Translations under genes and position numbers: made by a program
Part shown: piece by piece, positions 2,991 to 45,094 of the stretch
Layout of the letters: each line of letters starts with the position of its first letter
How positions within the stretch are numbered: position 1 is the stretch's first letter
Source of the DNA: Sisyra terminalis
Lineage: Eukaryota; Arthropoda; Insecta; Neuroptera; Sisyridae
Direction of reading: 5' to 3'
Length of the DNA: 64,000 nucleotides
NCBI GenBank assembly: GCA_958496175.1
Contig: OY292277.1
Coordinates: forward strand, 43,287,050-43,351,049
The notes under the pieces: model-generated
The model's database searches: none
The model's input: only the letters and a program-made list of their open reading frames with translations
What the model was told of the DNA's origin: nothing

Positions 2991-4257
2991 TATTTAAAAC
3001 AGGTATACTGGATATTGCTTAAGCCGTATCGGAAAAATGGTCTAGATTCTAGAAGAATGAAAGTTAAGAAAATGATGGTGGGATTTGAAGGATAAATACT
3101 AATAGTACAATGAATAGAAACTGGAGGTAAATAAATGAAGATTAACAATTGCAACAGAAAGAAATAATTGAAAGTAAATGTGGAAAATATTTTTCGAATC
3201 CTAAAAAAATCACTTTCTGTGTTACTTCGCACATTTATATTCAAAAAATTTGTGTGCGAAAAATTGATTTTCCCAAACGATGAAAATATTAGAGGGAAAA
3301 ACGTGGTTATATAGATATGTTTCGATTTTTGGTATTTTGAAAAATTTTGTGAAAATACATAATAAGGAAACTTTTTTTTCTTAAATGCCTTTTTTTATTA
3401 AATTATTTTGTTGGGGAAAGGTTCTGTTAAGTTTTCTGTAATTTTTCATTTTGTTTTATTACTAAACAATAGTTTAATAACATTTTACTGTACCAATGAC
3501 TGAATAATTAATTTTTCGTAATTAATGAATTACTACTAAACTATTTTGTCACAAACGAAATGGTTTCTTTTTCAAACCTCTACGTACGATTTCCCATCAA
3601 TTGGCAAACATTTTTTTGGAAAGTTCAAAGTTTAAAATTTTGTTGGGTAATCAGTATAGGGCGAAGAGATGTCAAGTATTAGGATATAAATAATAATTTA
3701 ACTATATAAGTTTATTACAATGTACTATTCAAAATAAAAATATTTGTTTCTGGACCATTGATTTTTTTGCGGTCCAAAAAAAATTATTTCATAAATCCCT
3801 TTTTTTCCAAATTTTAGGGATGAGGGGTAGATTCTATTAAGTTTTCTTTATGCTTTACTTTTGGATAAATGTTTTTTAAATTTTCCTGCATTGTTATTAT
3901 ATGTCGCTAAAACCTCTATTTTCTTATCATTTTACTATATCAACGACTGAATAATTAATTTTTCGTAATAAATGAATTACTACTAAACTATTTTGTCACA
4001 AACGAAATGGTTTCTTTCACAAACATCTACGAACGATTTCTCATCGATTGGCAAAAAAAAATTTGGAAAATTATAAATTTAAAATTTGTTGCTTAATCGG
4101 TATAGGATGAAGAGATGTCAAGTATTAGGATGTAAACAATAATTTAACTATATAAATCGATAAATTTGTTGTGTCCAAACTTTACATAATATTATTTATT
4201 TTTTTAGCAGGAAAGTGGACTTAAAGGATGTAAATCCATATACTAATAATTAATTTA

Positions 4258-4292
4258 GCGACGTTTCGGTCCTTTATTTGACCTTCATCAGG
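4258..4292 (-). ncRNA. Hammerhead ribozyme motif, left arm of element 1
   Basis: On the minus strand the core is CUGAUGA, then stem II GGUC/GACC around an AAAUAAAG loop, then GAA, then palindromic ACGU and C as the predicted cleavage nucleotide. The closing base pairs of stem I next to the core are weak in this copy, so activity is doubtful. Confidence 0.65.
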
Positions 4293-4601
4293 TTTCTTAA
4301 TATAAAGTAAATAATATACAGCGACATAGATTATAATTTTTTATATCACACACATACCTACATTAAAATTTTTTTATCTTAAAATTTTTATATTATTTTT
4401 TTTCATAATAAATTAGGTAAAAACGTGTTAATTAAAATCATTTTAAGAGCAACGATCTGCATATGCATATGGCTTATATACTGCACAATTAAATTCAGAT
4501 CCGAAATTAACACCTTGCATAGATTTTTTTTAATGAATGTGTGTGATATAGACAAAAATGTTGTTGTGTTTGAGATGTATATTATGTACTTTATATTAAG
4601 A

Positions 4602-4640
4602 AGCCTGATGAAGGTCAAATAAAGGACCGAAACGTCGCTG
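4602..4640 (+). ncRNA. Hammerhead ribozyme motif, right arm of element 1
   Basis: CUGAUGA is at 4605-4611. Stem II is GGUC/GACC, GAA is followed by palindromic ACGU at 4632-4635, and predicted cleavage falls after C4636. Stem I starts with three pairs (GCU with AGC). The four-base stem III implies pairing between two molecules, as known for minimal hammerheads in retroelements. Confidence 0.75.
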
Positions 4641-4902
4641 AATTAATTATTAGTATATGGGTTTACATCGTTTAAGTCCACTTTCCTGCTAAAAAAATAA
4701 ATAATATTAACTATATAAATGCTTATTACAATGTACAATTCAAATTAAAAATATGTGTTTCTAGGATCATTGATTTTTTTGCGATCCTCCTAAAGTTAAG
4801 CATTAATTGCTAGGTTCTAGTTAGATTTAAATTTTGACACCCCTGTCATACAGGATGAGGTAACATACTTGAACTTTAAAAATAGATAATAACGGAAGTT
4901 AA

Positions 4903-5836
4903 GGGGTTATATACAGTTAGCGTTTTCTAAAAATCTATTTTTTTTATTTTTTTTCTTAATGTACATACATTTAAGAATACATACAGAAAATTTCATATCG
5001 TTCCGGTGAATATTTTCGAAGTTACATGCAGGCCCCGCTCTAGCAAATTTGCCGCCCTGGGCAAGATGAAAAAATGCCGCCCCTTCAGGGTTGCAAAAAC
5101 AAAGTTTTAATATCACAAAATTTTTAATTTTTTGGAAAAATATTTTTTTAACTAAAAACTAATTTTTTCACATTTTTGTTCATATTGTATATCAAATATG
5201 ACAAAATGCCACCCCTGAAATTTTCATCCCCGGGCGACCGCCCGGGTTGCCCACCCCTAAAACGGGGGCTGGTTACACGCAAATTTGAAAAGACGTTTTT
5301 ATCCTATGTAAAGTGCTTTTCAAACTTTAAACGCGTTTTTCTCAAAATGGTGTTTTCAAAGTTGGTGCTTTCCAAACACGAGCTTCTTAAATATATTTCT
5401 TAGTTATTAATCGAAGATTTTTTCTCGCCGATAAATATTACTTCTTTTATATACAATTTAAGGTCGAAATTTTGGTCAAAAATCGATTTTTTTTTTTGAG
5501 AAACCGCCATTCAGTCAAACAAAAATTATTTTGCTTATTCCTTCGATTAATTACTAGATTTAACATTACTTTAACGATATCTGTTTGGGTTTTTAAATTC
5601 AGAGGATCCAGTTCAGAGATATAATGGTCACCGCAAAACGTCTTTTTTGAGAGGACCTTCCGGAGATCAGCTGTAGCTCCTTTCCAAATAAATAATTTTA
5701 CTAATACTAAGTCTTAAAATACAGTTAAAAGATATCATAATATGTGTACAAGTTTTTAGATCAATAAATATAAAAGTTTTCTCTGAAAAATTTCTGGAAA
5801 ATCGCTTTTTTAGGCCTTCTAACTGTATATAACTCC
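4903..5836. mobile_element. TTAA-flanked MITE
   Basis: The termini GGGGTTATATACAGTTAG and CTAACTGTATATAACTCC are an 18-bp inverted repeat with one mismatch. TTAA lies directly outside both ends (4899-4902 and 5837-5840). A TTAA target fits piggyBac-type insertion. No transposase is visible. A hAT-like element is nested inside at 5029-5271. Confidence 0.8.
5029..5271. mobile_element. hAT-like MITE nested in the TTAA element
   Basis: It begins CAGGCCCCGCTCTAG and ends CTAAAACGGGGGCTG, an imperfect CAG...CTG inverted repeat. The flanks GTTACATG (5021-5028) and GTTACACG (5272-5279) form an 8-bp duplication with one mismatch. The interior is GC-rich (GCCGCCCTGGGC, CCCGGGCGACC) and contrasts with its surroundings. 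It is younger than the element it interrupts. Confidence 0.8.
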
Positions 5837-5860
5837 TTAAAAAAAGTTTTTTTCGTAAAT

Positions 5861-7500
5861 TTGTCTGGTGACTTCTGGATCAATTGTATCAAAACACTTG
5901 TAGTACGTAAATACAGTTTGTTGGCGAATTTGCTACTGCGAGTGATAAACTATAGCTATGTACATATAATGTTCCTGTATATGTACGTAAATATAGATAT
6001 AGAAATCGTCAATGTAGCCGAGCATGACGATGATAGCGGTGGGAGTTTGGTCACATGTGATCAAGGCGCTAACGGAGCACCCTCGCATCAAAAACAGTAG
6101 CGACATAGCACAAACCGACTGATGAACTTTTTCTTTCGCCTCATTATCTCGACCGGTCGACCACTCGACAGTTTCAAAATTTTCTCCATATCCTAACCAT
6201 ACAGCTAACTAATTTTCCCAACAGTTTTCACTTGGGTTTCAGTTATGTTTTCCGTTTTGTTCGGTTCGTGTCTCAAAGCATATAAATCAAATTATCTAAA
6301 AACAACAATTCAATCGCCAGTTTAATTTGTCTCATTAAACTAATTAATAAAAATGCTGCTATCAGTACGTTAACATGCCGTTCTATCTTCTGATTTTATC
6401 ATAACATTTGATATCGTTATCTCCAAAAAGTAAAAAAAAAAACACAAATTATTTACGTTGTTAACATTGAAGAGTTGAAAAAATATTTCAATCATAAAGT
6501 GAGCAAAAAATTATTTATCTGGTAAGTTTGTAAAAAAATTATTATTTCATATTGTTTCTCCTAAAAATTTTTTTTCAAAATATTCAACTCATACACTAAT
6601 AACAATTGAATATCAACAATAAGCAACTTACAAACAATTGAAGTTTGTACAAAAAATAGTTAGTCATAGCTGATGGTTTTGAGTTTAGCAAAGCAAATGC
6701 TTAATTAAACTTTCATGAAATTCTCATGAAATATCATAATTTTTATCCTTTAAATTTTTATAAAAATTCAAAACGACCTATAACGGTATTTTTTTTTCTT
6801 TGAAAAGAACATTACTTGGGTTAATGATGTTGGGTATAATTTCTGAACCATATAAATATTTCTATACAATAATTTATAATTTTGCTAAAATTCAAAAAGG
6901 ATCTTTGAAAGTGATAACTTATAGTACAATTCGTCTATTTTATAACTCTTTATTATTTTTGAAACTAAAATAATAGACATTAAATGATTTTTTTTATAAG
7001 TTTCCCGTTTTTGAATAGTGTTTTTTTTTTGTTAATGATTTTATCACTAATAATTATTAGTTATTGTTATGCATAGTGTTGGTGTCGGGTATTTTTTGAT
7101 TGATTTATTATTTATTGTATAGTTCCTAAATAAATAAGTATATAATAGTATCCTGTAAATAATTCCCTTACTATGTCTCAAACTTGAGATTAGCAAATTT
7201 TTGAAGTTCTAAATCAAAAATTTTTCAAAAAAAAATGTTTTCAATAAATTATAAATAATAGATTTTCAAAAATCTTTCAAATTTGGAATGAAAAGTAAAG
7301 AATATATTTTAAAATATATTTTTTTGGTGTCCCATAAAAGAAAATCATTCCTTTATACCTTTACGGACAGTCGATATATGAATGCATCAGTAATTATTCA
7401 AGAAAGCTCTCATAAATTTTTTATTATTGGCAATACTATCAATTATTTCACATATTTAAGTCATCTTACACCTGGTATCGGCCACAAAATTTGAAAATTA
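5861..7500. other. AT-rich stretch with one candidate promoter
   Basis: Apart from the candidate promoter and first exon near 6.24-6.36 kb, listed separately, I see only AT-rich sequence and short frames without recognisable domains. The stretch 6020-6300 is less AT-rich than its neighbours. Confidence 0.5.
6239..6368 (+). promoter_or_regulatory. Candidate initiator promoter and short first exon
   Basis: TCAGTT at 6239 matches the insect initiator, and GGTTCG lies about 23 bases downstream, near the usual downstream-element position. The first ATG (6353) follows AATTAATAAAA and reads Met-Leu-Leu-Ser before GTACGT, a plausible splice donor at 6365. No matching second exon is recognised, so this rests on signals alone. 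Confidence 0.2.
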
Positions 7501-7514
7501 TTTGAAGATTACAT

Positions 7515-8780: not shown

Positions 8781-8914
8781 TGTATGATAATAATTTTAAA
8801 AAGTTTAACCAAAAATTAATCTTAAATTGAGCACCGAATTTTCATTTGGTAAACTATGGCATTTTTCTTAATATTTAGCATTTTAAAAATATATATGAAT
8901 ATATTATTATTGAT

Positions 8915-8990: not shown

Positions 8991-8999
8991 AAAAAAAAC

Positions 9000-10890: not shown

Positions 10891-10906
10891 CAAGTCTAAA
10901 ACGATG

Positions 10907-13753: not shown

Positions 13754-14565
13754 TCAAGCAACTGTTATTTCTTGGAGCTCTTGAGGGACTTTCCGTTTCA
13801 GCTTTCTTTGATTTATAGTTTCCCTCAAGCCTAGTTCTACTGCACTAGAACAATTTTCCAGACCGTTAAGGAAATTCCTTGTAAGTTGGATTAGGTAGTT
13901 TTTTATGCATAGGACGTTCATTTCGTGATAAATTTGGTTATTTCTCACATACCATGGAGCTTTAGTGATGATTTTCAAGACTCAATTTTGGAACACCTGT
14001 AGGTCATTGTGATTTTTCTTTGAGGATGGAAGCCAAACTGCGCAAGAGTATGTGAGAAATGGTCTAATAACTGATTTGTATATCATCATTGAACATTCCA
14101 TACTTAGACGAGACTTTCTGTTGATAAGTGGGTATAGTTGGATGAGTCGAATGTTGGCTTCTCTGATTTTACTTTAAATGTGGCTTTGCCAGGTTAATTT
14201 CGAGTTCAGAAGTTTGCCCAGATATTTAACAGGCATTGTTTTCTCACTTCACGGAATTTCTATGTGATCCAGCACGATAGGCTCCAGTTGGTTGGAGAAA
14301 CGTCTTAGAAACAAAATTTTGGCGATGCTTTTAGATGGATTAATATGAATTTTCCTTCTACTGAACCAGGAAGATAGGTGGTTGATAGACTGCTGGAATT
14401 TTTGAATGGCTCTTTGAAGATCATTGTTCAGGTTGATGATGGCGATGTCATCCACGTACATTGAGGTAATACAGTGGTCCAGTGATGGAAAGGCCGCAAC
14501 ATAGAGATTGGACCCAATACTGATCTCTGAGGTACCTTCGAGTGGATAGGTTTTTCCTCTGATAA
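13754..14565 (-). pseudogene. Jockey-like LINE reverse transcriptase remnant
   Basis: Reading leftward on the minus strand, a diverged PQRSVLGP block (PQGSVLGP in the family) leads, after a frameshift near 14500, to MYVDDIAII, the catalytic YxDD motif of reverse transcriptase. It then runs in one frame through VKYLGKLLNSKLTW, SVIRPFLTYSCAVW and the C-terminal APWYVRNNQI motif. Three in-frame stops interrupt it, near 14237, 14180 and 13982. The APWYVRN block is typical of jockey-clade LINEs. The 5' half (endonuclease, ORF1) is absent, as expected from 5' truncation. It is not functional. Confidence 0.9.
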
Positions 14566-14569
14566 CTGA

Positions 14570-15310
14570 TAAAATAAATTTTGAATCCCTTTTTCTCAGA
14601 AATGGTGAAAGTTATAAAAATAATGTTATGGCAATTTTTGTAGATAATTGCATGCTCTATAATTTAAATATAGAAACTATAACTATAACTTTATCATTTC
14701 TGTGCTGTAGTTTGAAGTAATCTATAGTCTTTAGGTCATCGTATAATGTAATATATTAGGAGTTGTTTGATGAATTAATTTCTCTTCTTTTGGTATACTC
14801 TTCACTTCTTCATACATATATTGATCTTTTTTCCGATTTTAAAATGGCAAATGAAGATTTAAACATGCTTCTTTTAATTACCATATCGACCAGTGATCCA
14901 GTTTGTGATCTGGTACCCATAATAGTTTTAGTAATTTTGATTTTCTTGTAATGCTTAGTACTGTTTCTGATGTTAAAAATAATTTCTACCTTTTCACTAT
15001 TCTTAACACTTTAATGCATTTGAAAAAAATTAAAAGAAAATTCTGAAATCCTGTCACTATTTCGACCATAGTTCTATAAATATCAGCACAAAAAATATTA
15101 CGAAAATTAGTTTTATTTTATTGACTAATTGGAATCATTAGATCTTTTAGGTCGCAGTATTGTTTGTAATAATACTCTTATAATAAGAATTCATAATATC
15201 ACTTACACAAAATATGAATTTTTTGCAAACCATAGGTATCACTAATTATGGATGAAGTGAGCAAAGAATTGCGGAATATGTCAAAGCTAATTTATTTAAA
15301 AATACATTAT
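14570..15310. other. AT-rich stretch, nothing recognised
   Basis: Only short frames without domain similarity. I see no repeat with defined ends. Confidence 0.5.
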
Positions 15311-15317: not shown

Positions 15318-15422
15318 ATTTTCCAGATATTCTAATAGTTCTAAATTCATAAATCATAAAAATCTGTTTAGCTATTTTGTAGTTATAAATAGTCTAACTA
15401 ACACGACTTTGTTATATATATA

Positions 15423-15471
<49 letters not shown>

Positions 15472-16582
15472 CAGGGCCAAAAAAATCGACTATTTTTTTT
15501 TTTTAAAAGTATATCGAAAATATTGTTCAAGGTGACAAAAAAAAAAGTTGGGAAGGTTTGAGCCCTTAATATTAATATTAAGAGGTGTAATTTCGATTTT
15601 TAATTTGTGCTTTCATTTTTGCGTCAATGCTGTCAAACTATCCAGGTAAAAAAAATCACTTGCACATATATTTATAGAAAATTAAATTCCTTACAAAGAA
15701 CGTCTCTTTGAAAATTTTTGCCAGACATGCGCGTTTCCGAATAATCAAGCTTTCAACATTGATATAATTCTTAGATTTATCTTCTTTATTTTGGAATTTT
15801 GTAACAAACGAACAAATAAATTTATAGAAATAAACATTATAGATTCTTAAAGCAAATTTAATGCTCTATAAAAAAGGTCTCTTAACGTTTTTTCATAAAG
15901 TCACTCTTTCAAAATTGGTTCAACAACGAAAAAAACAATAATTTAATTTTTCCTTCAACTTTAATTGTGAATAACTTTTGAAAAAATAATTTTATGTAAA
16001 AACGTTAAGATACCTATTTTGTAGAGTATTAAATTTACTTCAAGAATCTATATTGTTTATTTCTATATATTTATTTGTTCGTTAGTTATAAAATTCCAAA
16101 ATAAAGAAGATAAATCTAAGAGTTATATCAATGTTTAAAGCTTGATTATTCGGAAACGGCGTGTCTAGCGAAAATTTTTATAGAAACGTTTTTTGTAGGA
16201 AATTTAATTTTCTATAAATATATATGTATAAATGAATGTTTTTACCTTGATAGTTTGGCAGTATTGACGCAAAAATGAAAGCACAGATAAAAAATCGAAA
16301 TTAAAGATGATAGATCTCTTAATATTAATATTAAGGGCTCAAACCTTCCCGAAATTTTTTTTTGTCACCTTGAACAATATTTTCGATATACTTTTCAAAA
16401 AAAAAAATAGTCGATTTTTTTGGTCCTGTTTAATATATATATATATATATATATAACAAAGTCGAGTTAGTTAGACTATTTATAACTACAAAATAGCTAA
16501 ACAGATTTTTATGATTTATGAATTTTTGGATTCGTCAACGCCTAAATTAACAGAATAACAATTTGAATATCTGGAAAATTAA
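15318..16582. repeat. 1.27-kb imperfect palindrome with internal (TA)n tracts
   Basis: The left arm starts AATTTTCCAGATATTC and the right arm ends GAATATCTGGAAAATT. Arms of about 600 bp meet near 15940. Inside each arm lie a TA run, the word CCAAAAAAATCGACTATTTT or its complement, and CTTAATATTAATATTAAG. Complementarity continues outside the TA runs, so this is an inverted duplication of an element plus flank, not just a terminal inverted repeat. Related ends occur at 16590-16630, 24230-24360 and 30220-30360. Confidence 0.75.
15414..15467. repeat. (TA)n microsatellite
   Basis: Almost pure TA dinucleotides immediately outside a TTAAACAGGGCC element end. The same family sits in TA runs at 16430, 24230 and 30331, which suggests insertion into TA targets. 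Confidence 0.9.
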
Positions 16583-19150: not shown

Positions 19151-19250
19151 AAATTTGTAAATAAAAGAAAAAAAAAATAAATAAGAAGACAATTCAGGTT
19201 GTTGAAGATCGATTTTTTTTATTTAATGTTTTTGAATTCAAATTAAAATT

Positions 19251-19287
19251 AGCTACGTTTCGTTACGTATCGTAACTTCATCAGGCT
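19251..19287 (-). ncRNA. Hammerhead motif, left arm of element 2
   Basis: Minus strand: CUGAUGA, stem II GUUAC/GUAAC with a GAUAC loop, GAA, palindromic ACGU, then A as predicted cleavage nucleotide. Stem I begins GCU with AGC, so three pairs are intact next to the core. Confidence 0.75.
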
Positions 19288-19360
19288 TCTTGAATCACAA
19301 CGAATATTTTAGTTTTTTGTGATTTTAAAAAAAACTAAAATATTTTTTGTAATTCAGGAC

Positions 19361-19396
19361 GCCTGATGAAGTAACAATACGTTACGAAACGTAGCT
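19361..19396 (+). ncRNA. Hammerhead motif, right arm of element 2
   Basis: CUGAUGA at 19363-19369 and stem II GUAAC/GUUAC with an AAUAC loop. The other arm has GUUAC/GUAAC, so a base pair has switched while pairing is kept. Palindromic ACGU is at 19389-19392 and the predicted cleavage nucleotide is A19393. Confidence 0.75.
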
Positions 19397-19916
19397 ACTT
19401 TGAATTTGAATTCAAAAACATTAAATAAAAAAACCGATCTTAAACACCCTGAATTGTCTTCTTATGTAATAAAAAGCTGAAATCTGAATTTTGTCATCTA
19501 TTTATCAAAAATCTTAGATCTTCTTTTACTGATTGAAAAAATGATCAAAAACTGTAATAAAATAATTCAGGATATCAAAATCTAATACTTAAGAACTTTT
19601 AAGGATATCCTTGAGTCCTTTCCTCGTAAAAAAAAATATTTTACACTAAAAAGCTTTGATTTATCAAAAATTTGGTGAAAAAATGATTCCAACAAAAATT
19701 AAGCCTCTGATCAAGTTCAAGAAAAAAAGGTCCTTAGGAAAATATTGATTTTTCTAACCAATTTTTCTAAACGGCAGAAATATCAACAAATATCAAGCTT
19801 TTTAATGGGTTTTCCGGCGGTATCGGTATTGTTTTGGAAAAACATTCGAAAAATTTGTTTCCTTTGGTTCATATCAACAATATGATACTTAACACGCCTT
19901 ATACTATGTATTAGAA

Positions 19917-24228: not shown

Positions 24229-24356
24229 AGCGATATATATATATATATAATTTAGGGTGACTTTTTTTTTTGACTTTTTTTTTTTGGTCCCATCGTGAAA
24301 TTTTGTTGGAAATACCAAAAAAAAAAATTCTCTGAAAGTTTGAGCCCTTAATATTA

Positions 24357-24964
24357 ATTTTAAGTCCTCGACCAAGACGTGTAAAGATTTCCCATTGAAA
24401 ATACACGGAAACTCTGATTTTTTATTTTTAAATTTCTATATCTCAGCGGCATTTCATGGGATCGCTTTTACCGAAGATGGTTTTTTCTCAGAATTAAACG
24501 CTCTACAAAAGTGCCCATTGCGATAAAGTCGTAACTCACACCGGTGAGGTAGTACGGGCCACTGAACCTGATTTTTCCATAAAATTCGGTTTTTTTTTTG
24601 CATTTATCTCGTAAAAAACAAGAGCTACGGAAAACTTATAAATGAAAAACTTTTAGAGAATTTGATTTTCTTCAAAAAAGTTCGTGTAGACCAAATCGCG
24701 AAGATCAATATTAAACGAGATATTAAGCCTTGAGTTTTATGGAAAAATCAGGTTCAGTGGCCCGTACTACCTCACCGGTGTGAGTTACGACTTTGTCGTA
24801 ATGGGCACTTTTGTAGAGCGTTTAATTCTGAGAAAAAACCATCTTCGGTAAAAGCGATTCCATGAAATGCCGCTGAGATATAGAAATTTAAAAATAAAAA
24901 ATCAGAGTTTCCGTGTATTTTCAATGGGAAATCTTTACACGGCTTGGTCGAGGACTTAAAATTC
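24357..24964. repeat. Foldback repeat with arms of about 235 bp
   Basis: The left arm (24357-24592) and right arm (24728-24964) are near-perfect inverted copies. They share TTTTAAGTCCTCGACCAAG, ACCGGTGAGGTAGTACGGGC and TTTTGTAGAGCGTTTAATTC with their complements. A TA run and GAGCCCTTAATATTAA precede the left arm, linking it to the family at 15.4, 16.6 and 30.3 kb. Open frames within the arms are by-products of the repeat. Confidence 0.85.
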
Positions 24965-28853: not shown

Positions 28854-29283
28854 ATTTTATAAATCTTGGTATACTTCGGTATAGCGAAAACTATGTCCAC
28901 TTTATAACTACGAGAAAAACTAAGACCATTGCATTTGCTAAGACATCTGTACAGGTTCATCTGGTTAGAGGCCATTCATTAATTACGTAGGAGTATTGAA
29001 GAGGAGGAGGTTGAGAAAATCTCTATATATTCTTATGTTTGGGGGGAGGGGTGAAACTTATTTTTACGTAATACTTTGTAAATAAAAATTCAAAATTAAG
29101 AATTTAATTCCATTTACGATTCCGAATGGTTTTCTTCATTTTATACTGTACGATGTTATTTAAACCCTATTTAAAAATCAACTTTGATTTTTTTGCCGAA
29201 TTTCAATAGTTACACTATTAATAGAATGTATAAAGTATATTGTGGCCTTATTAACGTAATATAATTTAGAAAACTAAACTATA

Positions 29284-29400
29284 AATATAAATTTGAACAA
29301 AAGTTCAAACAAATATATTATTGACCTATTGTTCAGATATGTATTTCGATTGCCAAGCAATCTTCCTCAGAGGTCATCAAGTAGTATTGGGATTGCTCCA
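29284..29400 (-). ncRNA. Decayed hammerhead arm, relic
   Basis: One arm of the 43.4-kb family: AATTTGAACAAAAGTTCAAA, then on the minus strand CUGAGGA (N7 is G, allowed in the hammerhead core), stem II GAUUGC/GCAAUC and GAA. The stem III palindrome has decayed to AUACAUAU and the first stem I pair is lost, so it is probably inactive. Confidence 0.55.
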
Positions 29401-29621
29401 AAGCTGCTATGTAATGAGTCATTAAGTAATCACTAAATGAAATTTGTTTATTGCATATTGAAAAAAAGCTACTAATTAACATTTTTAATGTTGTCTTCTT
29501 TGAAGAACGACAACATGGCTGAATAATCCATTCGGTCTGGACGAAGATTAATGATTTATATTAATTTAGCTTTCACTGTATGATTTATTTTTTAAGACTA
29601 ACTTAAAATTAGTTAAAGTTA

Positions 29622-30040
29622 TTCAAGGTCAAAGTTGAACTAAAGAGAAATTTTAATATTTTTTCAATTTTTTGACACAACCATCAATTTTATGAGAAAA
29701 TTTTATAGGACATTTTTTGTAGAGCACTTTTTTTCTATAACTTATCTCTATAAAAGTTTTTGATATTTTTTACAGGTCCTAAATTATTTGCATTAAACTG
29801 AAAATTCCCTGAATTATTATATTTTTAATATAAACATTATTTTTTTTATTTTAATTAAATAACTTAGGACCTGTGAAAAATATCAAAAACTTTTAAAGAC
29901 ATAAGTTATAGAAAAAAAAGTGCTCTACAAAAAATGTCCTATAAAATTTTCTCATAAAATTGATGGTTGCGTCAAAAAATTTAAAAAATATTAAAATTTC
30001 TCTTTAGTTCAACTTTGACCTCGAATAACTTTTCAAGGAA
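29622..30040. repeat. Foldback repeat with arms of about 180 bp
   Basis: Arms TCAAGGTCAAAGTTGAACTA...TTTTTACAGGTCCTAA and TTAGGACCTGTGAAAAA...TAGTTCAACTTTGACCTCGA are close inverted copies around a 50-base spacer. It lies next to the CTTAATATTAATATTAAG and (TA)n end at 30220-30360, so it belongs to the TA-associated family. Confidence 0.8.
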
Positions 30041-30330
30041 TAAATATATCTAAAACTTGTGTAAGAGACCTTTTTTGTAGATCGTTCAATTTTCTACAAG
30101 AATATACCTTAGTCATTCCGAAATATTGTCACCAACGTGAGCTATAAAATTCCAAAGTGCAAGAGAATATTGTTCCCATGTTATTTAAATGGAAAATTGA
30201 AATTTGCGATGCGGTACCTCTTAATATTAATATTAAGAGCTTAAACTTTCACAGGATTTTTTTTTGTTAATCTCAACTATATTTTCGATATAATTAAGAA
30301 AAAAAAATCATCATTTTTTTTGAATCAGTC

Positions 30331-30358
30331 TAATATATATATATATATATATATATAT
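30331..30358. repeat. (TA)n microsatellite
   Basis: Pure TA run directly after CAGTCTAATA, the same junction as at 16430 and 24230. Confidence 0.85.
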
Positions 30359-33910: not shown

Positions 33911-34233
33911 TTCGAGTTTTACATGGGAGTACAGCAAAGTTGCTACCAAAACGTTGTCAATATTTATCCAAGTGCATTAGTTCAAAACCGATTAGAGGTT
34001 TTGAACGCCCCTGACAAAACAAATTTTGGCGCCTTTTTATATAACAATATACAAATTTGCTACAAAGTAAACGAAAAATAGTGATGTCAAAAATAAGATG
34101 TCAAGGGAGGAAATGGTACCAAATTTATGTCAAGTAATCGAAGAATTGTCAAAAATTCCTAAATAATTTTATTTATTTTTAGTAGGATAGTGGACAAGAA
34201 AGGATGTAGATCCATGTACTAATTATTAATTGT

Positions 34234-34271
34234 GCGACATGTTTCGGTCTTTTATTAGACCTTCATCAGGC
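34234..34271 (-). ncRNA. Hammerhead motif, left arm of element 3
   Basis: Minus strand: GC then CUGAUGA, stem II GGUC/GACC around UAAUAAAA, GAA, then the six-base palindrome ACAUGU, C and GC. Two stem I pairs adjoin the core. Confidence 0.75.
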
Positions 34272-34408
34272 TTCTAAAATCATACAAACACATGTATTAC
34301 AGAATCCTTCAAACATTACTAATTGTTAATTGTTATTTAACTAAGGTAATTTAATAATTAGTAATGTTTGAAGGATTCTGTAATACATGTGTTTGTATGA
34401 TTTTAGAA

Positions 34409-34446
34409 GCCTGATGAAGGTCTAATAAAAGACCGAAACATGTCGC
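34409..34446 (+). ncRNA. Hammerhead motif, right arm of element 3
   Basis: CUGAUGA at 34411-34417, stem II GGUC/GACC, palindromic stem III ACAUGU at 34438-34443, predicted cleavage after C34444 and GC/GC at the base of stem I. The palindrome is two bases longer than in element 1 but still self-complementary. Confidence 0.78.
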
Positions 34447-34854
34447 AAAATTAATAATTAGTACATGGATCTACATCCTTTCTTGTCCACTATCCTACTA
34501 AAAATAAATAAAAGTATGTAAATATGGACACAACCAATTTATTGATTCCTAAATAATCTTGGTCGACTAACCAAGTACCCAAAAGTTCTCTACTGTCAAT
34601 AGAGAAAACTTTATTCTGCAACGATACTGCAAGATTCTTCTGCAAAAGAAACGCCCTGGGAAAATTGCTAAACTTAGGGGGGGGTGATATTGTCATACCT
34701 ACTATAATCGTCCAAAGTTGTCTCATCAGATTTTGATTAATTTTAATTCGATTAAATTCGATTCCATTGCTTAAACATTTTTTAAATAATAAAAAAATTA
34801 AACTGAATGGATATTTTTTTTATAATTTGTGTTGTTTCGCAATTTGTCCCAATC

Positions 34855-36017: not shown

Positions 36018-36019
36018 TA

Positions 36020-38828: not shown

Positions 38829-39022
38829 TACCTATTTGTGGAAAAATTTGAGCATAATAAAACTATGATCAAAATACATTTTTATTCACATAAAATCCTA
38901 TTAGCTGAATAATGTAAGCTTAACTGCACTAATGGACATTATTTTGTATTTTTTTTTTAATAAGAAGACAATTCAGGTTGTTTACGATCGGTTTTTTTAT
39001 TTAATATTTTTACTATTCAATT

Positions 39023-39058
39023 AGCTACGTTTCGTTACGTATCGTAACTTCATCAGGT
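39023..39058 (-). ncRNA. Hammerhead motif, left arm of element 4
   Basis: Minus strand: CUGAUGA, stem II GUUAC/GUAAC, GAA, ACGU palindrome, A. The base of stem I has one good pair and a mismatch. Confidence 0.68.
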
Positions 39059-39507
39059 TTCTATAAAAAATTAAAATAACTACAAAATATGTCAATCATA
39101 CATAAATTTCAGAACTATAATAATATACATATAATATAGATAATATAAAATATTTGTAATTAAATAATAATAACTAACTCAAAATTACAAAATATGACAA
39201 ATATTTTAAGAGATATTGTTATAAATAATTAAATATATAATAATAAAATTAATTAATAAAATACAATTGATTCACAAAAATAAAATATTTTCAATTTAAA
39301 TTCAATAAATAAATAAAAATTTAAAAATTACACACTCTACCCATACAAATTACACGTAAATTCAGTGCCGTCTAATGAGCCCAACTAACGTCCAACCGCA
39401 CGTTATTCAAACATAGGTCCACCAATTTAAACTTTTTGTACACTATTTTTTTTTAAATTTATAAAGCAAATTAGAATAATTTTGTAATTATTTTAATTTT
39501 TTATAGA

Positions 39508-39544
39508 AGTCTGATGAAGTTACGATACGTAACGAAACGTAGCT
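39508..39544 (+). ncRNA. Hammerhead motif, right arm of element 4
   Basis: CUGAUGA at 39511-39517, stem II GUUAC/GUAAC, palindromic ACGU at 39537-39540, predicted cleavage after A39541. Stem I opens with a G-U pair, then C-G and U-A. Confidence 0.72.
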
Positions 39545-39659
39545 AATTGAATAGTAAAAATATTAAATAAAAAAACCGATCTTAAACAACCTGAATTTTC
39601 TTCTTATTTAAAAAAATAAAAGCTGAGATCTGAATTTTATCATCTATTATTTTGTATGT

Positions 39660-40600
39660 AAATAGTTTGTTAATGCAAAATTATGCGTAGTAAAAAATTG
39701 AACCAAATATAATTTAATTGTTACACCCTTTTTTAATGAGAATTCAATAATAGCAATTATATCAAACCACAAAATTGTAAAGACCTTCTACAAAGATCAA
39801 TGGAATGATTCATAGTGGTTAGATTTTGGTTTTGAATTGAAATTAGATTAAATTGAATGATTTAGTATTAGGCAAATTTATTTATGGAAAGACGAAAATG
39901 ATGCAATAATAACTATCTAATGAAAAATTTAGTAGTAAAAAATTATAGGAAAGATTATATGTACAACTATAGGTACTTATGTATCTAACCCATTAAAATT
40001 TTTCTTTGAATATTTTAATTTTTATCGTTCTTACAAAATTGGCATTGAATTACTAATCAAGTATAAGTTGCATACTTAGTTTTAGCTTTGCAAAACTTCC
40101 TGCGTATTTAAGCTTTTTTTTCAAACTTTTTGTAAATCATTAAAGTTCTTAACTATAAAGATTAACAACAAATTCTTCATAAATTTGGGGTCAAAAGTTG
40201 AAAAATATGCTGGGAATGTTATACTAAAATTTGAAGATTTAGTTATCGAATATTGAAAAGTATTGATAAAAATTTAGTTGCAATTTTTCCAAACCGAAAA
40301 CGAAAACTTATCATAGCGAAAACTAAGTATAATAAAACTTGCATAATATTTGCAATTTTCTTAATGATACATATATTGAATGGGATTTTCTTGATTTTTC
40401 TTAGAAGTTATGATAAATTTTTGGAAAAATCCAACTCAGGTTTTTTTTATCATACTTTCCTTTAAATAAACGTTTTTTTCAAAGCATTTAAGATTTAATC
40501 CTTCGTTGTGTAGTTGTGCTTGATCTTTTGTATGTTTGTCTCCAATTTAAATCGAAAAGAAAAAAATGAAAGATGATAGTATGAAAATTGTTGACAAAAA
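39660..40600. other. AT-rich stretch, nothing recognised
   Basis: No supported gene or bounded repeat. Confidence 0.5.
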
Positions 40601-40639
40601 CTCCAACTACCAATCAAATAAGATTTTTTCTGCTTTCTT

Positions 40640-40830
40640 TGAACAGTTATACTGTTTAGGCAGTATATAAAATATATTGTGGTCCTATGTGGTGTCCTAT
40701 ATGTAGTCCTATATATTGTGGTATATAAAATATTTATGTAGTATTATTTAAAGTATACCAAAGTATATTGTGGTCCAATTTAAGTAGTATTATTTAAAGT
40801 ATACTACATAAATTGGATCAAAAACTACAA
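40640..40830. repeat. Internally repeated segment related to the foldback flanks
   Basis: TATATAAAATAT and TATATTGTGGTCC, and GTAGTATTATTTAAAGTATAC, each occur more than once with changes. The same words recur at 41150-41200, 43760-43830 and 44890-44960, so this is part of the same element family. Confidence 0.6.
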
Positions 40831-40899
40831 TCGGAAAAACAATAGTTTATTTTATGGATAATAATATATATGTCTTTGAGATTCAATTAAAAAATTACT

Positions 40900-40948
40900 T
40901 TATTACGACGCGTTTCGACAGTTTTCGACTGTCATCATCAGGTAATAA
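40900..40948 (-). ncRNA. Best-preserved hammerhead ribozyme motif
   Basis: Minus strand: stem I UUAUUAC, CUGAUGA, U, stem II GACAG/CUGUC with a UCGAAAA loop, GAA, palindromic stem III ACGCGU (40908-40913), C, then GUAAUAA, which pairs perfectly with the first strand. All three helices and every core position are intact. No second arm is visible nearby. It is adjacent to an AAT repeat at 40946. Confidence 0.85.
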
Positions 40949-41078
40949 TAATAATAATAATAATAATAATTTTGTCAATTTTAAACAAATTTAATATATA
41001 TTATTATTAACAAATAATATATATTATTATCCATTAATTTATTGTGATTCGGAAGTAAATAAAATACTTATCAATGTT

Positions 41079-41268
41079 AAAGTTTATTTTATATTTCCAG
41101 AATTTATTTCTGAAGTTGGTAGTTGGACTGTTTATGCAATATATAAAATATATTGTGATCCAATTTATGTAGTATACTTTAAATAATACTACATAAATTG
41201 GATCACAATATATTTCATAAACAGTCCAACTACCAACTTCAGAAATAAATTCTGGAAATATAAAATAA
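41079..41268. repeat. Near-perfect hairpin with arms of about 90 bp
   Basis: ATATTTCCAGAATTTATTTC and AAGTTGGTAGTTGGACTG pair with the reverse-complement blocks at the right. The arms meet at AGTATACTTTAAATAATACT. It contains the TATTGTGATCCAATTTATGT flank words of the hammerhead family. Confidence 0.85.
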
Positions 41269-41289
41269 CCTATCTACTTTTCGATTGTA

Positions 41290-42700
41290 ATTTTTTTATT
41301 GTTTTCCTCATAAATTTCATTTAAATTAATTTTATGCATAGTTTTTGTTATTTGACAAATGAAATTTTCCATTGTAAGACAAATGAACCTACTTACACGC
41401 ATGCGTGGCCACTTTAATTATTTAACAATGAAAACAAAGTAACTATTTTTCTTACATGTGAAAATGTTATTTATTTTTCTATAAATCTTTTTCACACAAT
41501 ACCACAATCAATAACGATTTATCTTCTTAGAAATAATTGATTTCCTCTATCAAATTATCAATCATCCCTCTGTCTTATTTCTTCTTTTCCCAAAAAGGAA
41601 AGATTTATCAAAAAAAAAAAAAAATAATAATAAAATCCCAATGACGCTTTTTGATGTTAAACCACTCTGATACAATGCATTCCAGTTAGCAAGAATACAA
41701 TTTACGTAAATGGAAATACATTAATATAAAGTTACATTGGCAAATATTTTTCTTTTTTTTTTTTAGTCTATACCAATGAAATCACGATATTATTTACTTA
41801 GATTTACACTCATATATTCCCATACATTATCCGATATATTCATGCCAATGAATGGTAACATTCGAGTAACACTTGAATGGTCAAAGCAAGTAAATCTCCT
41901 CAATAATGTATCAACGAATAGTAAAACCACAAGTTAAATCTTCAATTAGAGCCTAATTTTATGTTTGATTTATCGAAACATTCAATATTGGTGTAAAACA
42001 TATTTACGAATAATGAAAATAATATTCTGTATGAAAATTGATCAATAGCTGATGCATAGAATAAATAATTGTGAATAAATAGTGGTAATTGTAAAAGGGG
42101 GACATTCACATATAATACTCACATTATTATGTTTGACAATAAAATTTATTAAAATTTTCTTGAATGTGAAAGTATGTGTTTTCTTTGGGCATACATGTAG
42201 GCTCATCTTCGTTTCGGATATTTTCATGTTGACCAGAAAGTGAATTTTATTCGTCTTTTGAACGTGCACGTGTGAATTTATATAACAGTACCTTATAATC
42301 GGTGATCGAAAATAATTGATCAAAGTTATAAAAGAGATTGTTTGTGCATCGTATTACTTGATTGTGGTGAATGGAAACGAGATTCTTAACAATGGATCGA
42401 TATAAAAGTAGGTACATTTTCAATTATGGTCTTCCAAGACCTTTTTTTTATACAAATTTTCATAATGTTAATCATTTTTCCGGAGAAAAGATACTTCTAT
42501 TTGATGCCTTGAAAACATTTGGATTTTGATAGTTGATAAAGTAATAATTGATATTGAAACTTTTTTAGATGATTGAGCAACTCTAGGCTTAGGCATTTGA
42601 CCAATTTAATCTTTTTCCCATGAATATTCGAATTATTTTCTTATATATCTATTTTTAATTTTTAATTTCCTTCAATAATATAAAGGATTATTGTAAAATT
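41290..42700. other. AT-rich stretch, nothing recognised
   Basis: No frame with domain evidence and no bounded repeat. Confidence 0.5.
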
Positions 42701-42723
42701 TCAGATCCTCGATGATAATAGAT

Positions 42724-43287
42724 TGATAAAATATTCAGAGGACTAGGATCACAAATAATCGGTTAAAACTTTATTTATTACATGCGATGTTTTGGCTCCT
42801 TTATTGAGCCTTCCTCAGGCGTTGGTAAAAAATCGTTTTAACTTTGTCAATAATTATCGTTGTCATAATTTATTTTTGTAGTCACGGTACTGTTGGTAAA
42901 AACAGTAATAAAACTTCCAAGACGTAAAAAATTTTTCAACAAAAAATAAATAATTTTTCGATAAAAATAATAATTAAAAAATTAATAGTCTCAGAACCGC
43001 TGTGAGACTACGCAATGATGAGCGGCTGAGTTTAAAAGTAGTGTAAATTTTTAACTAAATTTTTTAATTTAAATTTTATTATTATTTTTGTTTTATTATT
43101 TATTATTGTTTTTACCAACTGTACCGTGTCTACAAAAATGAATTATGACAACGATAATTATTAACAAAGTTAAAACGATTTTTTACGAACCCCTAAGGAA
43201 GGCTCAATAAAGGAGCCGAAACGTCGTATGTAATAAATAAAGTTTTAACCGATTATTTTTGATCGTAGTCCTCTGAATATTTTATCA
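42724..43287. mobile_element. Foldback element 5 with decayed hammerheads
   Basis: The arms begin TGATAAAATATTCAGAGGAC and end with its complement near 43287. The left arm (minus, 42784-42820) has CUGAGGA and stem II GGCUC/GAGCC but AAA in place of GAA. The right arm (plus, 43191-43228) has CUAAGGA, a broken core, with ACGU and C kept. Both are probably inactive. I could not find a target duplication. Confidence 0.7.
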
Positions 43288-43483
43288 CTATAAGGGATAG
43301 TAATAAAAAAAAGTAATTAAGAAAATATTTCAAAAATTTCATTTCTATTGATAAAATGCATTAAAAATAATAATATACAAATTTAATATAATAATATATA
43401 AACTCAATATAATAATATATAAAAATCATACCACCAACATAAATTTGAAAAAAGTTCAAACAAAAATATTCGTGACTTATTGC

Positions 43484-43524
43484 CCAGATACGTATTTCGA
43501 TTGCCAAGCAATCTTCATCAGTGG
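43484..43524 (-). ncRNA. Hammerhead motif, left arm of element 6
   Basis: Minus strand: CCA, CUGAUGA, stem II GAUUGC/GCAAUC with a UUG loop, GAA, the eight-base palindrome AUACGUAU, C, UGG. Stem I begins with three pairs (CCA with UGG). Confidence 0.8.
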
Positions 43525-43605
43525 TCATCAAGTAGTTTGGATCACTCCGTAACTGCTTTGTGATGATTCACGTTCAGTTACGGAGTGATCCAAACTACTT
43601 GATGA

Positions 43606-43646
43606 CCACTGATGAAGATTGCTTGGCAATCGAAATACGTATCTGG
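43606..43646 (+). ncRNA. Hammerhead motif, right arm of element 6
   Basis: CCA 43606-43608, CUGAUGA 43609-43615, six-pair stem II GAUUGC/GCAAUC, palindromic stem III AUACGUAU at 43635-43642, predicted cleavage after C43643, UGG 43644-43646. It is intact at all core positions. Confidence 0.82.
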
Positions 43647-45094
43647 GCAATACGTCACGAATATTTTTGTTTGAACTTTTGTTCAAATTTATGTTGGTGG
43701 TATGATTTTTATATATTATTATATTGAGTTTATATATTATTATATTAAATTTGTATAGTATTATGTTAAATTATACTACATAAATTGGATTGCAATATAT
43801 TTTGTATATTGTATACACAGTATTACTGTTCAAAATCAGCGAAAAAATCTTATTTTATGATTATTATATTGATGATCCATTAAAAAGATAAAAAATAAAT
43901 TTATGAACTGAATCTTCATACCGTTTACACCATCAATATTAAGGTGATATTAGCCAATTAACGAAAACCGTAAGCTAATTACTTGTGTATCAAAGCTAGG
44001 GGTGTAATTTTGTTTACAATTTGGTTATACGGATTATCCTTCTCTTTGATGTACAACTAGATAGCTTACGATTCTCCTTAATTGGCTAATTTCACTTTAA
44101 TATCGATGGTACCATCGGTACAAAGATTAAGTTCATAAATTTATTTGTTACCTTTTTAGTGCATTTTATCACTATTGAGGTTTTTGAAGTCTTTCTTTAA
44201 ATTTTTTAAAATTTTTATCCTTAATTAACATTGCTGGTATTCTTATCCATGGTTATTATACATTAATGATTCTCATTTTCTGGATACTTAATATTCGATG
44301 TTTTTATTAAATTTTTCGTACAACGTTTCGCCACTTTCGCAGTACTGAAGAAGTTCGCCACTTTTTAGTACCTGAGGAAGTTGCGAAAGTGGGGAAACGT
44401 TATACGAAAAATTTAATAAAAACATCGAATATTAAGTATTCAGAAAATGAGAATCATTAATGTATAATAACCATGGATAAGAATACCAGCAATGTTAATT
44501 AAGGATAAAAATTTAAAAAAATTTAAAGAAAGACTTCAAAAACCTCAATAGTGATAAAATGCACTAAAAAGGTAACAAATAAATTTATGAACTTAATCTT
44601 TGTACCGATGGTACCATCGATATTAAAGTGAAATTAGCCAATTAAGGAGAATCGTAAGCTATCTAGTTGTACATCAAAGAGAAGGGTAATCCGTATAACC
44701 AAATTGTAAACAAAATTACACCCCTAGCTTTGATACACAAGTAATTAGCTTACGGTTTTCGTTAATTGGCAAATATCACCTTAATATTGATGGTGTAAAC
44801 GGTATGAAGATTCAGTTCATAAATTTATTTTTTATCTTTTTAATGGATCATCAATATAATAATCATAAAATAAGATTTTTTCGCTGATTTTGAACAGTAA
44901 TACTGTGTATACAATATACAAAATATATTGCAATCCAATTTATGTAGTATAATTTAACATAATACTATACAAATTTAATATAATAATATATAAACTCAAT
45001 ATAATAATATATAAAAATCATACCACCAACATAAATTTGAACAAAAGTTCAAACAAAAATATTCGTGACGTATTGCCCAGATACGTATTTCGAT
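43629..45094. repeat. 1.47-kb palindrome with arms of about 712 bp
   Basis: The left arm (43629-44340) and right arm (44381-45094) are nearly identical inverted copies. Each contains half of element 6, a copy of MITE family C, and at the centre CGTATAACGTTTCC or its relative. The right arm stops inside the hammerhead stem II (after ATACGTATTTCGAT). At 44372 a CUGAGGA, a wobble-paired stem II GUUGC/GUGGG and GAAACGU give a degenerate hammerhead at the centre. Confidence 0.85.

Follow-up and report, generated by a model that had tools for sequence, protein, structure and literature searches.

We found that the window, a stretch of 64,000 nucleotides of Sisyra terminalis DNA, contains a series of short elements that are very probably insertions of pseudo-LTRs (pLTRs) of Penelope-like retrotransposons. 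In the paired elements two pLTR copies lie head to head, with their 5' sides inward and their 3' sides outward. The first-pass annotation had described these as foldback elements; the structures are instead head-to-head Penelope pLTR insertions that have short target duplications and are tailed at one end only.

We scanned the window with a strict descriptor (CTGANGA, 0-1 nt, a stem II of at least 4 bp, GAAA, a palindrome of 4-8 nt, and H). Eleven motifs fit, compared to a mean of 0.0075 in 400 dinucleotide shuffles, of which 3 had one match and none had more than one, in agreement with the earlier claim of at least eleven motifs sharing the order CUGANGA, stem II, GAA, palindrome, H. The simple pattern CTGANGA..GAAAC was observed 10 times in the window with 0.32 expected, and one form of the motif was present in 8,960 copies in the 376.6 Mb genome, compared to 13 for the same pattern reversed. 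Stem III of the motif is a palindrome without a loop. All eleven window motifs had an extra nucleotide between CUGANGA and stem II in a scan that also allowed 0 nt. This nucleotide, a detail absent from the first-pass annotation, is A in ten motifs and T at 40907-40941. Damaged copies lie at 29344-29370(-), at 43193-43221(+) with a partner at about 42790-42818(-), and at 44372-44398(+). The features are listed here, with the strand where one applies; every motif fits the strict descriptor unless described as damaged.

4144..4157, F1 left target site duplication (TTAACTATATAAAT), exact 14-bp match to 4707-4720
4158..4706, F1, head-to-head Penelope pLTR pair; left copy long (tailed), right copy short
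4260..4291 (-), F1 left-arm hammerhead motif; stem II GGUC/GACC, stem III ACGU, H17 = C
4605..4636 (+), F1 right-arm hammerhead motif
4707..4720, F1 right target site duplication, matching the left
19178..19500, F3 (GUUAC family), ends approximate, target duplication not clear; tail on right copy
19254..19284 (-), F3 left-arm hammerhead motif (GUUAC/GUAAC)
19363..19393 (+), F3 right-arm hammerhead motif (GUAAC/GUUAC)
29257..29433 (-), F5b, a lone, damaged copy from the RT-bearing family; motif 29344-29370, stem III palindrome lost
34155..34167, F2 left target site duplication (ATTCCTAAATAAT), exact match to 34545-34557
34168..34544, F2, head-to-head pair; left copy short, right copy tailed, both arms of unspliced type
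34236..34269 (-), F2 left-arm hammerhead motif (stem III ACAUGU)
34411..34444 (+), F2 right-arm hammerhead motif
34545..34557, F2 right target site duplication, matching the left
38938..38949, F4 left target site duplication (ATTATTTTGTAT)
38950..39645, F4, head-to-head pair; tail on right copy
39026..39056 (-), F4 left-arm hammerhead motif
39511..39541 (+), F4 right-arm hammerhead motif
39646..39657, F4 right target site duplication
40907..40941 (-), F6, single-copy hammerhead motif; GACAG/CUGUC, stem III ACGCGU, inserted U
42790..43221, F7, damaged head-to-head pair (GGCUC/GAGCC), left motif to right motif; left copy tailed, outer ends not fixed
43360..43771, F5, pLTR copies of the RT-bearing family paired head to head; no target duplication fixes the ends
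43487..43521 (-), F5 left-arm hammerhead motif (GAUUGC/GCAAUC, stem III AUACGUAU)
43609..43643 (+), F5 right-arm hammerhead motif
44372..44398 (+), F8, damaged motif centred in a 713-bp palindrome; stem II pairing lost

The three stems vary between families and remain paired, which upholds the first-pass claim of a selected RNA structure and extends it genome-wide. Among 49 distinct stem II cores from 100 of the 8,960 copies, the first four positions were paired in 95.4%, compared to 65.6% after re-pairing (maximum 75.5%). Within F3, stem II of the right arm differs from that of the left by a compensatory change, T-A to A-T. The bases flanking the cleavage position and CUGANGA had been proposed to pair as stem I (UUAUUAC/GUAAUAA in F6), and they do: in 15 family representatives, chosen without regard to stem I, the first three positions were 77.8% paired versus 58.6%, and the observed value was reached in none of 5,000 shuffles. 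The palindromic nature of stem III was borne out as well. The six-base form ACNNGT was found in 2,283 copies genome-wide versus 162 with the reversed pattern, and it was self-complementary in 92 of the 100 copies listed (by eye, G-U allowed), most of which come from few families and are thus not 92 independent cases. The core is fixed, stems I and II covary, stem III is self-complementary and an NUH precedes the predicted cut; this is the layout expected of a Penelope-type minimal hammerhead. On sequence evidence, there is good support for a putative hammerhead-type RNA whose stems are under selection. DNA-binding or coding constraint that imitates a hammerhead core would fit the lack of Rfam matches above threshold, but stems I and II covary independently around a fixed core, stem III is self-complementary, and core mutants of an Anolis ribozyme with the same layout lose cleavage (PMC11167929); we consider such an imitation extremely improbable.

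The canonical type I hammerhead (RF00163), in which stem II follows CUGANGA directly and stem III is looped, was ruled out. In the whole window, no Rfam family was found at its gathering cut-off and no hammerhead covariance model matched at E up to 10; none matched the copy at 4605. The best match to any hammerhead model, Hammerhead_1 at 40901-40947(-), scored 11.2 bits versus a gathering score of 34. The likely reason that the Rfam models miss the motif is its loopless stem III, together with the nucleotide inserted ahead of stem II. The first-pass annotation had named two findings that together would speak against a ribozyme, lack of cleavage and lack of a model hit above threshold; the second is what we found, and this variant seems to lie outside what the models cover. 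Such ribozymes are therefore probably overlooked in routine annotation, and the copies described here form an extensive natural set of covarying sequences for a hammerhead variant missed by the Rfam models.

The connection to Penelope-like elements, previously drawn from the minimal stem III, was strengthened by the RT-bearing relatives in the same genome. A search with a 200-aa Penelope RT bait yielded 823 candidates and 150 scored places. Among the 30 of these places that were examined, 25 had the motif within the examined flank, and one family was the window's own. F5 (43360-43571) was 93.9% identical over 214 bp to the pLTR of the RT-bearing locus L131, and F4 (38952-39478) matched the RT-bearing locus L122 with 91% identity over 542 columns. 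Three loci (L129, L131 and L134) have a direct pLTR-ORF-pLTR order with a ribozyme motif on each side of the ORF, and at some RT loci the ORF between flanking motifs encodes 839 or 853 residues. The RT protein tested matched RVT_1 at 34.7 bits (cut-off 29.6). In the L131 frame, residues 692-729 matched the GIY-YIG domain (PF01541) at 16.1 bits, below the cut-off of 22.6, and GIYEIPC...YVGQT is legible there; a genome search with PF01541 gave a match at one locus only, a locus other than L131. In the window, by eye, no Penelope-type RT was recognised in the 144 open stretches that span 60 codons or more, and the sole ORF of at least 150 aa is that of a transporter. The RT-bearing relatives elsewhere in the genome would supply protein for the non-coding window copies.

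The architecture of the pairs provided further evidence. Same-family neighbours less than 1 kb apart were oriented (-,+) in 22/22, 13/14 and 12/12 cases in three overlapping lists, the last two scored by eye. The exception was one same-subfamily pair, 395 bp apart and oriented (+,-); two RT neighbours in the Penelope-RT search were also not head to head. Exact target duplications of 10-14 bp flanked 30 of 50 pairs, compared to 11 of 148 mismatched controls with at least 10 bp, and a satellite copy at 3470-3775 shows the F1 target without the element. A 3' tail of ~32 nt was present on exactly one arm in 42 of 44 scorable pairs, on both arms in none and on neither in two; the tail patterns matched in 0-2 of 400 random stretches. 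Of the 30 pairs flanked by a duplication, 23 had arms whose lengths differed by 25-37 nt; the difference fell outside this range in seven, including F7, whose duplication is spurious. In two families, GT-AG introns at one position were present in some copies and cleanly absent from others, and the splicing state was the same in both arms of all 40 readable pairs, seven of them unspliced. The one-sided tail and the concordant splicing state within pairs are possibly new. One locus, L025, has a 12-bp duplication, and one of its arms comes from subfamily A and the other from subfamily B, with the split supported 96/96.

These features bear on two other identities. Foldback DNA transposons (MITEs) that carry the motif by chance would have long inverted repeats, as these elements do. 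However, the ends are unequal, with their single tail, the target duplications vary in length, some copies lack introns cleanly, and RT-bearing relatives have the same motif. This origin has next to no probability in our view; it was refuted for F1, F2 and F4, and for F1 and F2 the ends were checked against the target duplications. Animal retrozymes, which consist of tandemly repeated units with type I hammerheads and spread in the form of circular RNA, share with the window elements a small, non-coding, AT-rich, hammerhead-bearing form, and PMC7761336 suggests that Penelope-like elements may mobilise them. Against this reading, and against the likeness to retrozymes raised in the first-pass annotation, no tandem monomers of 150-450 bp were seen among the 100 copies listed, and the 22 same-family neighbours within 1 kb were all inverted; one same-strand, same-family neighbour within 3 kb occurred among those 100 copies, 1.6 kb apart. 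Moreover, stem III is loopless here, whereas most invertebrate type I hammerheads have a stable helix III according to the available text of PMC7761336. We judge a retrozyme origin to be highly unlikely, and the Penelope pLTR reading is the one used below.

Insertion of the poorly understood Penelope elements, and its head-to-head outcome with a one-sided tail, have no settled explanation in the available text of PMC3846280 and PMC11167929. The construction of the paired ends gives clues to this process, and the motif copies in this genome, which number in the thousands and often lie in short, well-preserved pairs, carry markers (tail, intron, subfamily and target duplication) that let counting separate the models. 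The single tail per pair and the shared splicing state suggest that both arms have the same single RNA as template, with perhaps two start sites, each serving one target strand. In this model the RT-endonuclease would bind a Penelope RNA, in many cases after splicing immediately upstream of the ribozyme, and would cut both target strands. Both arms would be copied from this RNA, each cDNA primed by a different target strand: one would begin at the outer site and include the tail, and the other would begin ~32 nt upstream and yield the tail-less end. The second enzyme would displace the first cDNA while following along the same RNA, and the two cDNAs would join at their A/T-rich, partly palindromic 5' ends. 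One start per site would give every head-to-head insertion one tailed and one tail-less end, and a single template would give both arms a common splicing state. To our knowledge, no mechanism that combines one RNA, two starts and two strands is known from another retrotransposon. It is a tentative proposal that two enzyme subunits, each primed by one cut strand, reverse transcribe a single RNA as a pair from two fixed starts ~32 nt apart, and its two-start step has the same probability as the snap-back route described below. The clean loss of the intron from some copies in two families supports a route through RNA, and in the Anolis element both start sites are in use and the purified protein extends both strands (PMC11167929). 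By contrast, that paper found the start site to be no different between the top and bottom strands in vitro, which counts against this model. L025, which used two templates or had one arm converted later, counts against a single template, and the finding that the partner arm was the nearest row in 8 of 31 pairs on a poorly resolved tree does not by itself support one.

No more and no less probable is a snap-back, in which one cDNA runs from the outer (tail) site to the RNA 5' end, folds on its A/T-rich palindromic end and copies itself until the RNA-protein complex blocks it ~32 nt before the end; the Penelope identity is unchanged and only the joining step differs. This route also has a single template for both arms, consistent with the splicing concordance, and fits the head-to-head order. 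Many pairs have palindromic or nearly palindromic centres, and self-priming from such palindromes was proposed in PMC3846280. That proposal favours an antisense template, however, and the seemingly exactly spliced copies in two families mean that sense RNA was copied, at least there. In addition, the tail-less end matches a start site of reverse transcription in the Anolis element (PMC11167929), favouring initiation over premature stop, and L025 shows two templates. A third model, with two RNAs, perhaps joined through the palindromic stem III as a hammerhead dimer and copied from the two cut target strands, is unlikely. The L025 chimera, whose two subfamilies both have stem III ACGU, argues for it, as do the maintenance of a palindromic stem III through its changes and the extension of both strands by the Anolis element (PMC11167929). 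But mixed spliced and unspliced arms occurred in 0 of 40 readable pairs even though seven were unspliced, on a poorly resolved tree the splicing state is scattered (14 changes versus 14.5 with shuffled labels), and there was one clear chimera among 31 pairs on trees or 27 classified (overlapping sets).

Within the single-RNA model, the ribozyme would most likely trim or separate Penelope RNA units, as a dimer or aided by the Penelope protein. Inside a finished head-to-head insertion the predicted ribozyme should be silent because the transcript folds as one long hairpin. Counting against the model, the available text of PMC11167929 reports that ribozyme mutants remained able to insert and that none of the RNA-seq reads ended at the cut site.

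The closest known systems, compared here from the available portions of the papers cited, share parts of this arrangement. PAc, a Poseidon-type Penelope of Anolis carolinensis (PMC11167929), has the same CUGANGA, one inserted nucleotide, stem II, GAA, ACGU and C. Its ribozyme, active with its protein, has an adjacent stem I like the window motif and lies at the ORF start (CUGAGGAUG in PAc, CTGAAGATG in the window relative L111), and PAc likewise has two RT start sites separated by the tail, with both target strands extended. Unlike PAc, the window copies are non-coding head-to-head pairs whose stem III can also be ACAUGU, ACGCGU or AUACGUAU; statistics on head-to-head pairs are not reported in the available text of PMC11167929. 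The minimal hammerheads known from Penelope-like elements (Cervera and de la Pena 2014; Lunse et al. 2017, via PMC7761336 and PMC6155905) similarly lack helix III or the usual loop-loop contacts, may act as dimers and number in the thousands in many animal genomes. Animal non-LTR retrozymes (PMC7229834) are also non-coding with type I hammerheads, but they are tandem repeats, whereas in the window elements the pairs are inverted and have Penelope tails and target duplications. The endonuclease-containing Penelope families of Adineta vaga (PMC3846280, where the word "hammerhead" occurs 0 times) have inverted, mostly head-to-head pLTRs, a 31-bp tail optionally on one inverted pLTR, 8-10 bp target duplications, junction palindromes and retained introns. 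The described A. vaga elements hold an ORF and have very low copy number, whereas the insect genome has thousands of motif copies, short ORF-less pairs, and copies both with and without the intron.

We searched the window with a strict descriptor of the hammerhead motif (CTGANGA followed by 0 or 1 nt, a stem II with 4 bp or more, GAAA, a 4-, 6- or 8-nt palindrome and any base except G). It matched 11 times, whereas 400 dinucleotide shuffles averaged 0.0075 matches and never had more than one; a simpler pattern matched 10 times with 0.32 expected. The motif reported in the first-pass annotation is thus present far above chance. An Rfam search with the whole window, at the gathering cut-off and with E up to 10, gave no useful match; with short stretches, the best Hammerhead_1 score was 11.2 bits against 34 (40901-40947, minus strand), leaving no Rfam family above cut-off, and the copy at 4605 had no Hammerhead_1 match. 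The likely reason is that stem III lacks a loop and that an extra nucleotide lies between CUGANGA and stem II, as it does in 11 of 11 window motifs. Among 124 strict motifs in DNA fetched from the same genome (loci with L-numbers), found by a scan that required the insertion, this nucleotide was A in 120, T in 3 and C in 1; some copies are counted twice because L001-L008 overlap later regions. The RNA of PAc, the Penelope element of Anolis carolinensis, likewise has an inserted nucleotide (CUGAGGA-U-GCCUGC...GUGGGC-GAA-ACGU-C; PMC11167929). At locus L111 (CTGAAGATG) the beginning of the frame overlaps with the ribozyme, as it does in PAc (CUGAGGAUG).

The motif is abundant in the genome (376.6 Mb, 11 contigs). 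The pattern CTGANGAAGN{10,30}GAAACGT occurred 8,960 times (4,462 + 4,498) and its backwards-read form 13 times. A pattern with a six-base stem III, CTGANGAN{12,32}GAAACNNGTH, occurred 2,283 times compared to 162 for its reversal; the two sets of copies overlap. We examined base pairing in the 100 copies listed of the 8,960, the first on contig 1. These contained 49 distinct stem II cores, whose first four positions were paired in 95.4% of cases compared to 65.6% after random re-pairing (maximum 75.5% in 2,000 trials); 11 of the 100 copies had fewer than four contiguous stem II pairs. For stem I, the first three positions paired in 77.8% among 15 family representatives from the fetched DNA, compared to 58.6% after shuffling; none of 5,000 shuffles reached the observed value. 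The representatives were unselected for stem I; they had been selected for stem II and therefore do not test it. Stem III was self-complementary in 92 of 100 listed six-base copies, judged by eye with G-U allowed, although these derive from few families and are not independent. In four loci (L010, L014, L032 and L033) stem III reads ACGUGU and self-pairs only via G-U, and copies of the same family, such as window element F2, have ACAUGU. The ACGUGU copies look like intermediates in a change of stem III.

The motif-bearing elements of the window (F1-F8, including F5b) are ends of Penelope elements. A 200-residue Penelope reverse transcriptase (RT) sequence identified 823 candidate places in the genome. 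We scored 150 of them (best 58% identity, E 2.6e-66), and the motif lay within the fetched flank at 25 of 30 fetched RT loci. L129, L131 and L134 have ribozyme motifs on both flanks of an open frame that measures 839 or 853 residues from stop to stop, in the pLTR-ORF-pLTR order of Penelope. The motif there, GAUUGC/GCAAUC with stem III AUACGUAU, is that of F5, and the F5 segment 43360-43571 is 93.9% identical to the pLTR of this family. Similarly, F4 aligns over 542 columns with 91% identity to L122, an RT-bearing locus with a motif of the GUUAC family, named for its stem II. The L131 frame matched RVT_1 above cut-off and GIY-YIG only below it. A genome search with GIY-YIG (PF01541) matched a single locus, L009, which we take from its cysteine-rich frame to be a host SLX1-like gene. 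Inspection by eye of the 2.9-kb spacer of L030 and the 1.8-kb spacer of L031 revealed no recognizable RT. About two dozen of the 150 scored RT places had equal scores, several with open frames of more than 800 residues; this Penelope family has probably moved recently in this insect.

Close neighbours among arms of one family, the pLTR copies that each carry a motif, usually lie head to head. Among the 100 listed copies, same-family neighbours less than 1 kb apart were all (-,+) (22 of 22), and the remaining three neighbours within this distance belonged to different families; one same-strand, same-family neighbour within 3 kb was 1.6 kb away. In lists read by eye, six-base copies had 12 of 12 such neighbours in (-,+) order, and a second list that included arms of subfamily A had 13, with one (+,-) at 395 bp. 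In this exception, subfamily A copies at G000:C1:63467607 (+) and 63468002 (-) face each other, opposite to the usual order. Neighbours among the 150 scored RT places were (-,+) in six cases (0.8-3.8 kb apart), (+,-) in one (4.5 kb) and (-,-) in one (2.8 kb).

Some window pairs are flanked by target duplications. The one at F1 is as follows.

4144-4157 and 4707-4720, no strand assigned: 14-bp target duplication of F1, TTAACTATATAAAT; the neighbouring satellite unit shows the empty site

F1 is inserted adjoining one unit of a tandem satellite (3470-4155, period about 447 bp). The duplications at F2 and F4 are 13 bp and 12 bp. The 3' end is 32 nt longer on one copy, the left in F1 and the right in F2; we refer to this extension as the tail. 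A duplication proposed for F7 was withdrawn, since its left copy carries the tail.

We extended these observations to pairs from two sources: 24 (-,+) same-family pairs less than 3 kb apart among the listed copies of the 8,960-copy pattern, and 60 regions around subfamily A copies with the partner outside the exact pattern, 27 of which had a partner. The 50 pairs scored were the fetched pairs minus nested or weak ones, plus five window pairs. Excluded from the duplication, splicing and tail counts were L020, L022 and L023 (nested or mispaired); partners at L055, L056 and L080 were dropped for alignment scores below 90. The counts also leave out the F5 pair of the window and F5b, F6 and F8, each of them single or damaged. 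An exact target duplication of at least 10 bp (10-14) was present in 30 of 50 pairs compared to 11 of 148 mismatched controls. Arm lengths differed by 25-37 nt in 23 of these 30 pairs and otherwise in 7. Of the 44 pairs in which both bodies were intact, 42 had exactly one tail (on the left in 20, on the right in 22), two had no tail and no pair had two; in the other six (L018, L027, L030, L093, L105 and L109) one body or the family was not recognized. If the two ends chose freely, half of the pairs would be expected to be alike. The tail search was independent of the duplications, and its patterns matched 0-2 of 400 random window stretches. Solo copies with an intact body had a tail in 10 of 30 cases. 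A stem-loop between body and tail was unsupported (best stems averaging 8.9 within 10 copies compared to 8.3 across families).

Some arms contain introns that end four nucleotides before CUGANGA, and two families have both intron-bearing and exactly joined copies. Their introns are as follows.

L122, 203 nt: GTGAATCAAG^GTATTTATT...TTATAG^AAGC
L032, 61-62 nt: CATATTAAG^GTATTTTAA...TTTTAG^AAGC

We infer that presence or absence reflects splicing and not intron gain. Spliced copies then indicate that copying of a sense, spliced RNA took place on at least one occasion in both families. This argues against antisense RNA as the sole template, an idea linked to self-priming in PMC3846280. Splicing state was readable in 40 of the 45 pairs from these families and unreadable in five; both arms were spliced in 33 and unspliced in 7, and no pair was mixed. 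A tree of 70 arms, itself poorly resolved, had 14 changes of splicing state compared to a shuffled mean of 14.5, and well-supported branches forced at least three changes. Splicing state is scattered and thus not simply a mark of lineage. Concordant splicing favours one RNA as template for both arms, unless the unspliced copies stem from source loci that never splice their RNA. On the tree, 10 of 31 pairs grouped as a clade of just their two arms, and in 8 of 31 the partner was the nearest arm (102 columns; seven further pairs, L073, L079, L093, L094, L096, L105 and L109, lay outside this tree). We regard these figures as uninformative and not as support, since the closest row in a star-like family tends to be a copy that has changed little. 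L025 counts against a single RNA: it has one tail and a clean 12-bp duplication, and its left arm falls in subfamily A and its right arm in B, across a split supported 96/96. This locus calls for either two RNAs or conversion of one of its arms at a later time. No clear A/B chimera was found around the 60 subfamily A copies, 27 with a partner. Compensatory stem II differences between the arms of F3 and of L029 were dropped as proof of two templates; those of L029 fall at CpG sites, and a single case is too few.

How the second arm is made can be framed with PAc, whose protein extends both target strands and whose tail lies between two reverse transcription start sites (PMC11167929). In one model, the Penelope protein would cut both target strands, one cDNA would start at the outer site of an RNA and the other some 32 nt further upstream on that RNA, and the two would be joined at their A/T-rich 5' ends. 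A point against it is that PMC11167929 reports equal start sites for top and bottom strand. About equally likely is a snap-back of the first strand. It has one template and head-to-head order in common with the two-start model, but would need a reason for the second arm to end every time at a position that serves as a start site in the Anolis element. Least certain is what the ribozyme does. Folding of the whole F2 pair transcript gave one hairpin (-267.9 kcal/mol compared to a shuffled mean of -61.3), so the ribozyme should act in direct tandem-unit RNA or with protein help. PMC11167929 reports that single core mutations abolish PAc ribozyme cleavage, which depends on protein in the published assay. 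Against a central role, the same paper describes ribozyme mutants that still insert in vitro and no RNA-seq reads ending at the cut site.

Minimal hammerheads, inverted pLTRs, an optional tail and retained introns of Penelope elements are in print (PMC7761336, PMC6155905, PMC3846280, PMC11167929 and PMC8969392). In the passages of these papers that we consulted, we found no statement that exactly one arm is always tailed or that arms agree in splicing. The elements themselves are of known type, and the part that may be new is the proposed mechanism.

Several arms and spacers had further peculiarities. In L013, L071 and L075, about 10 nt between two ATATTAAA-like repeats are missing from just one of the arms, as might result from slippage of the copying enzyme. 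The L024 spacer, in the middle of a GUUAC-family pair, contains another inverted pair whose motif is that of the L022 family; its position suggests that A/T-rich centres are insertion targets.

Elsewhere in the window, the sole open frame of at least 150 aa from a start codon (51451-52830) encodes a transporter (Pfam Sugar_tr). The best match listed for it, at 63% identity, was an organic cation transporter from the lacewing Chrysoperla carnea, and the host is probably a neuropteran or closely related to one. A 713-bp palindrome (43629-44341 and 44382-45094; 99% complementary, 40-nt centre) holds several older repeats and the outer part of F5; it resembles the product of a recent inverted duplication or, alternatively, of an assembly effect. 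Other long inverted repeats that lack the motif lie at 15343-16525, 24356-24963 and 29615-30032; parts of the first match 29921-30358. By eye, open stretches at 13985-14611 and 45167-45472, both minus strand, resemble remnants of LINE reverse transcriptase and RNase H. Finally, two foldback elements without a hammerhead (2089-2311 and 47783-48008) are 93% identical and are probably MITEs.
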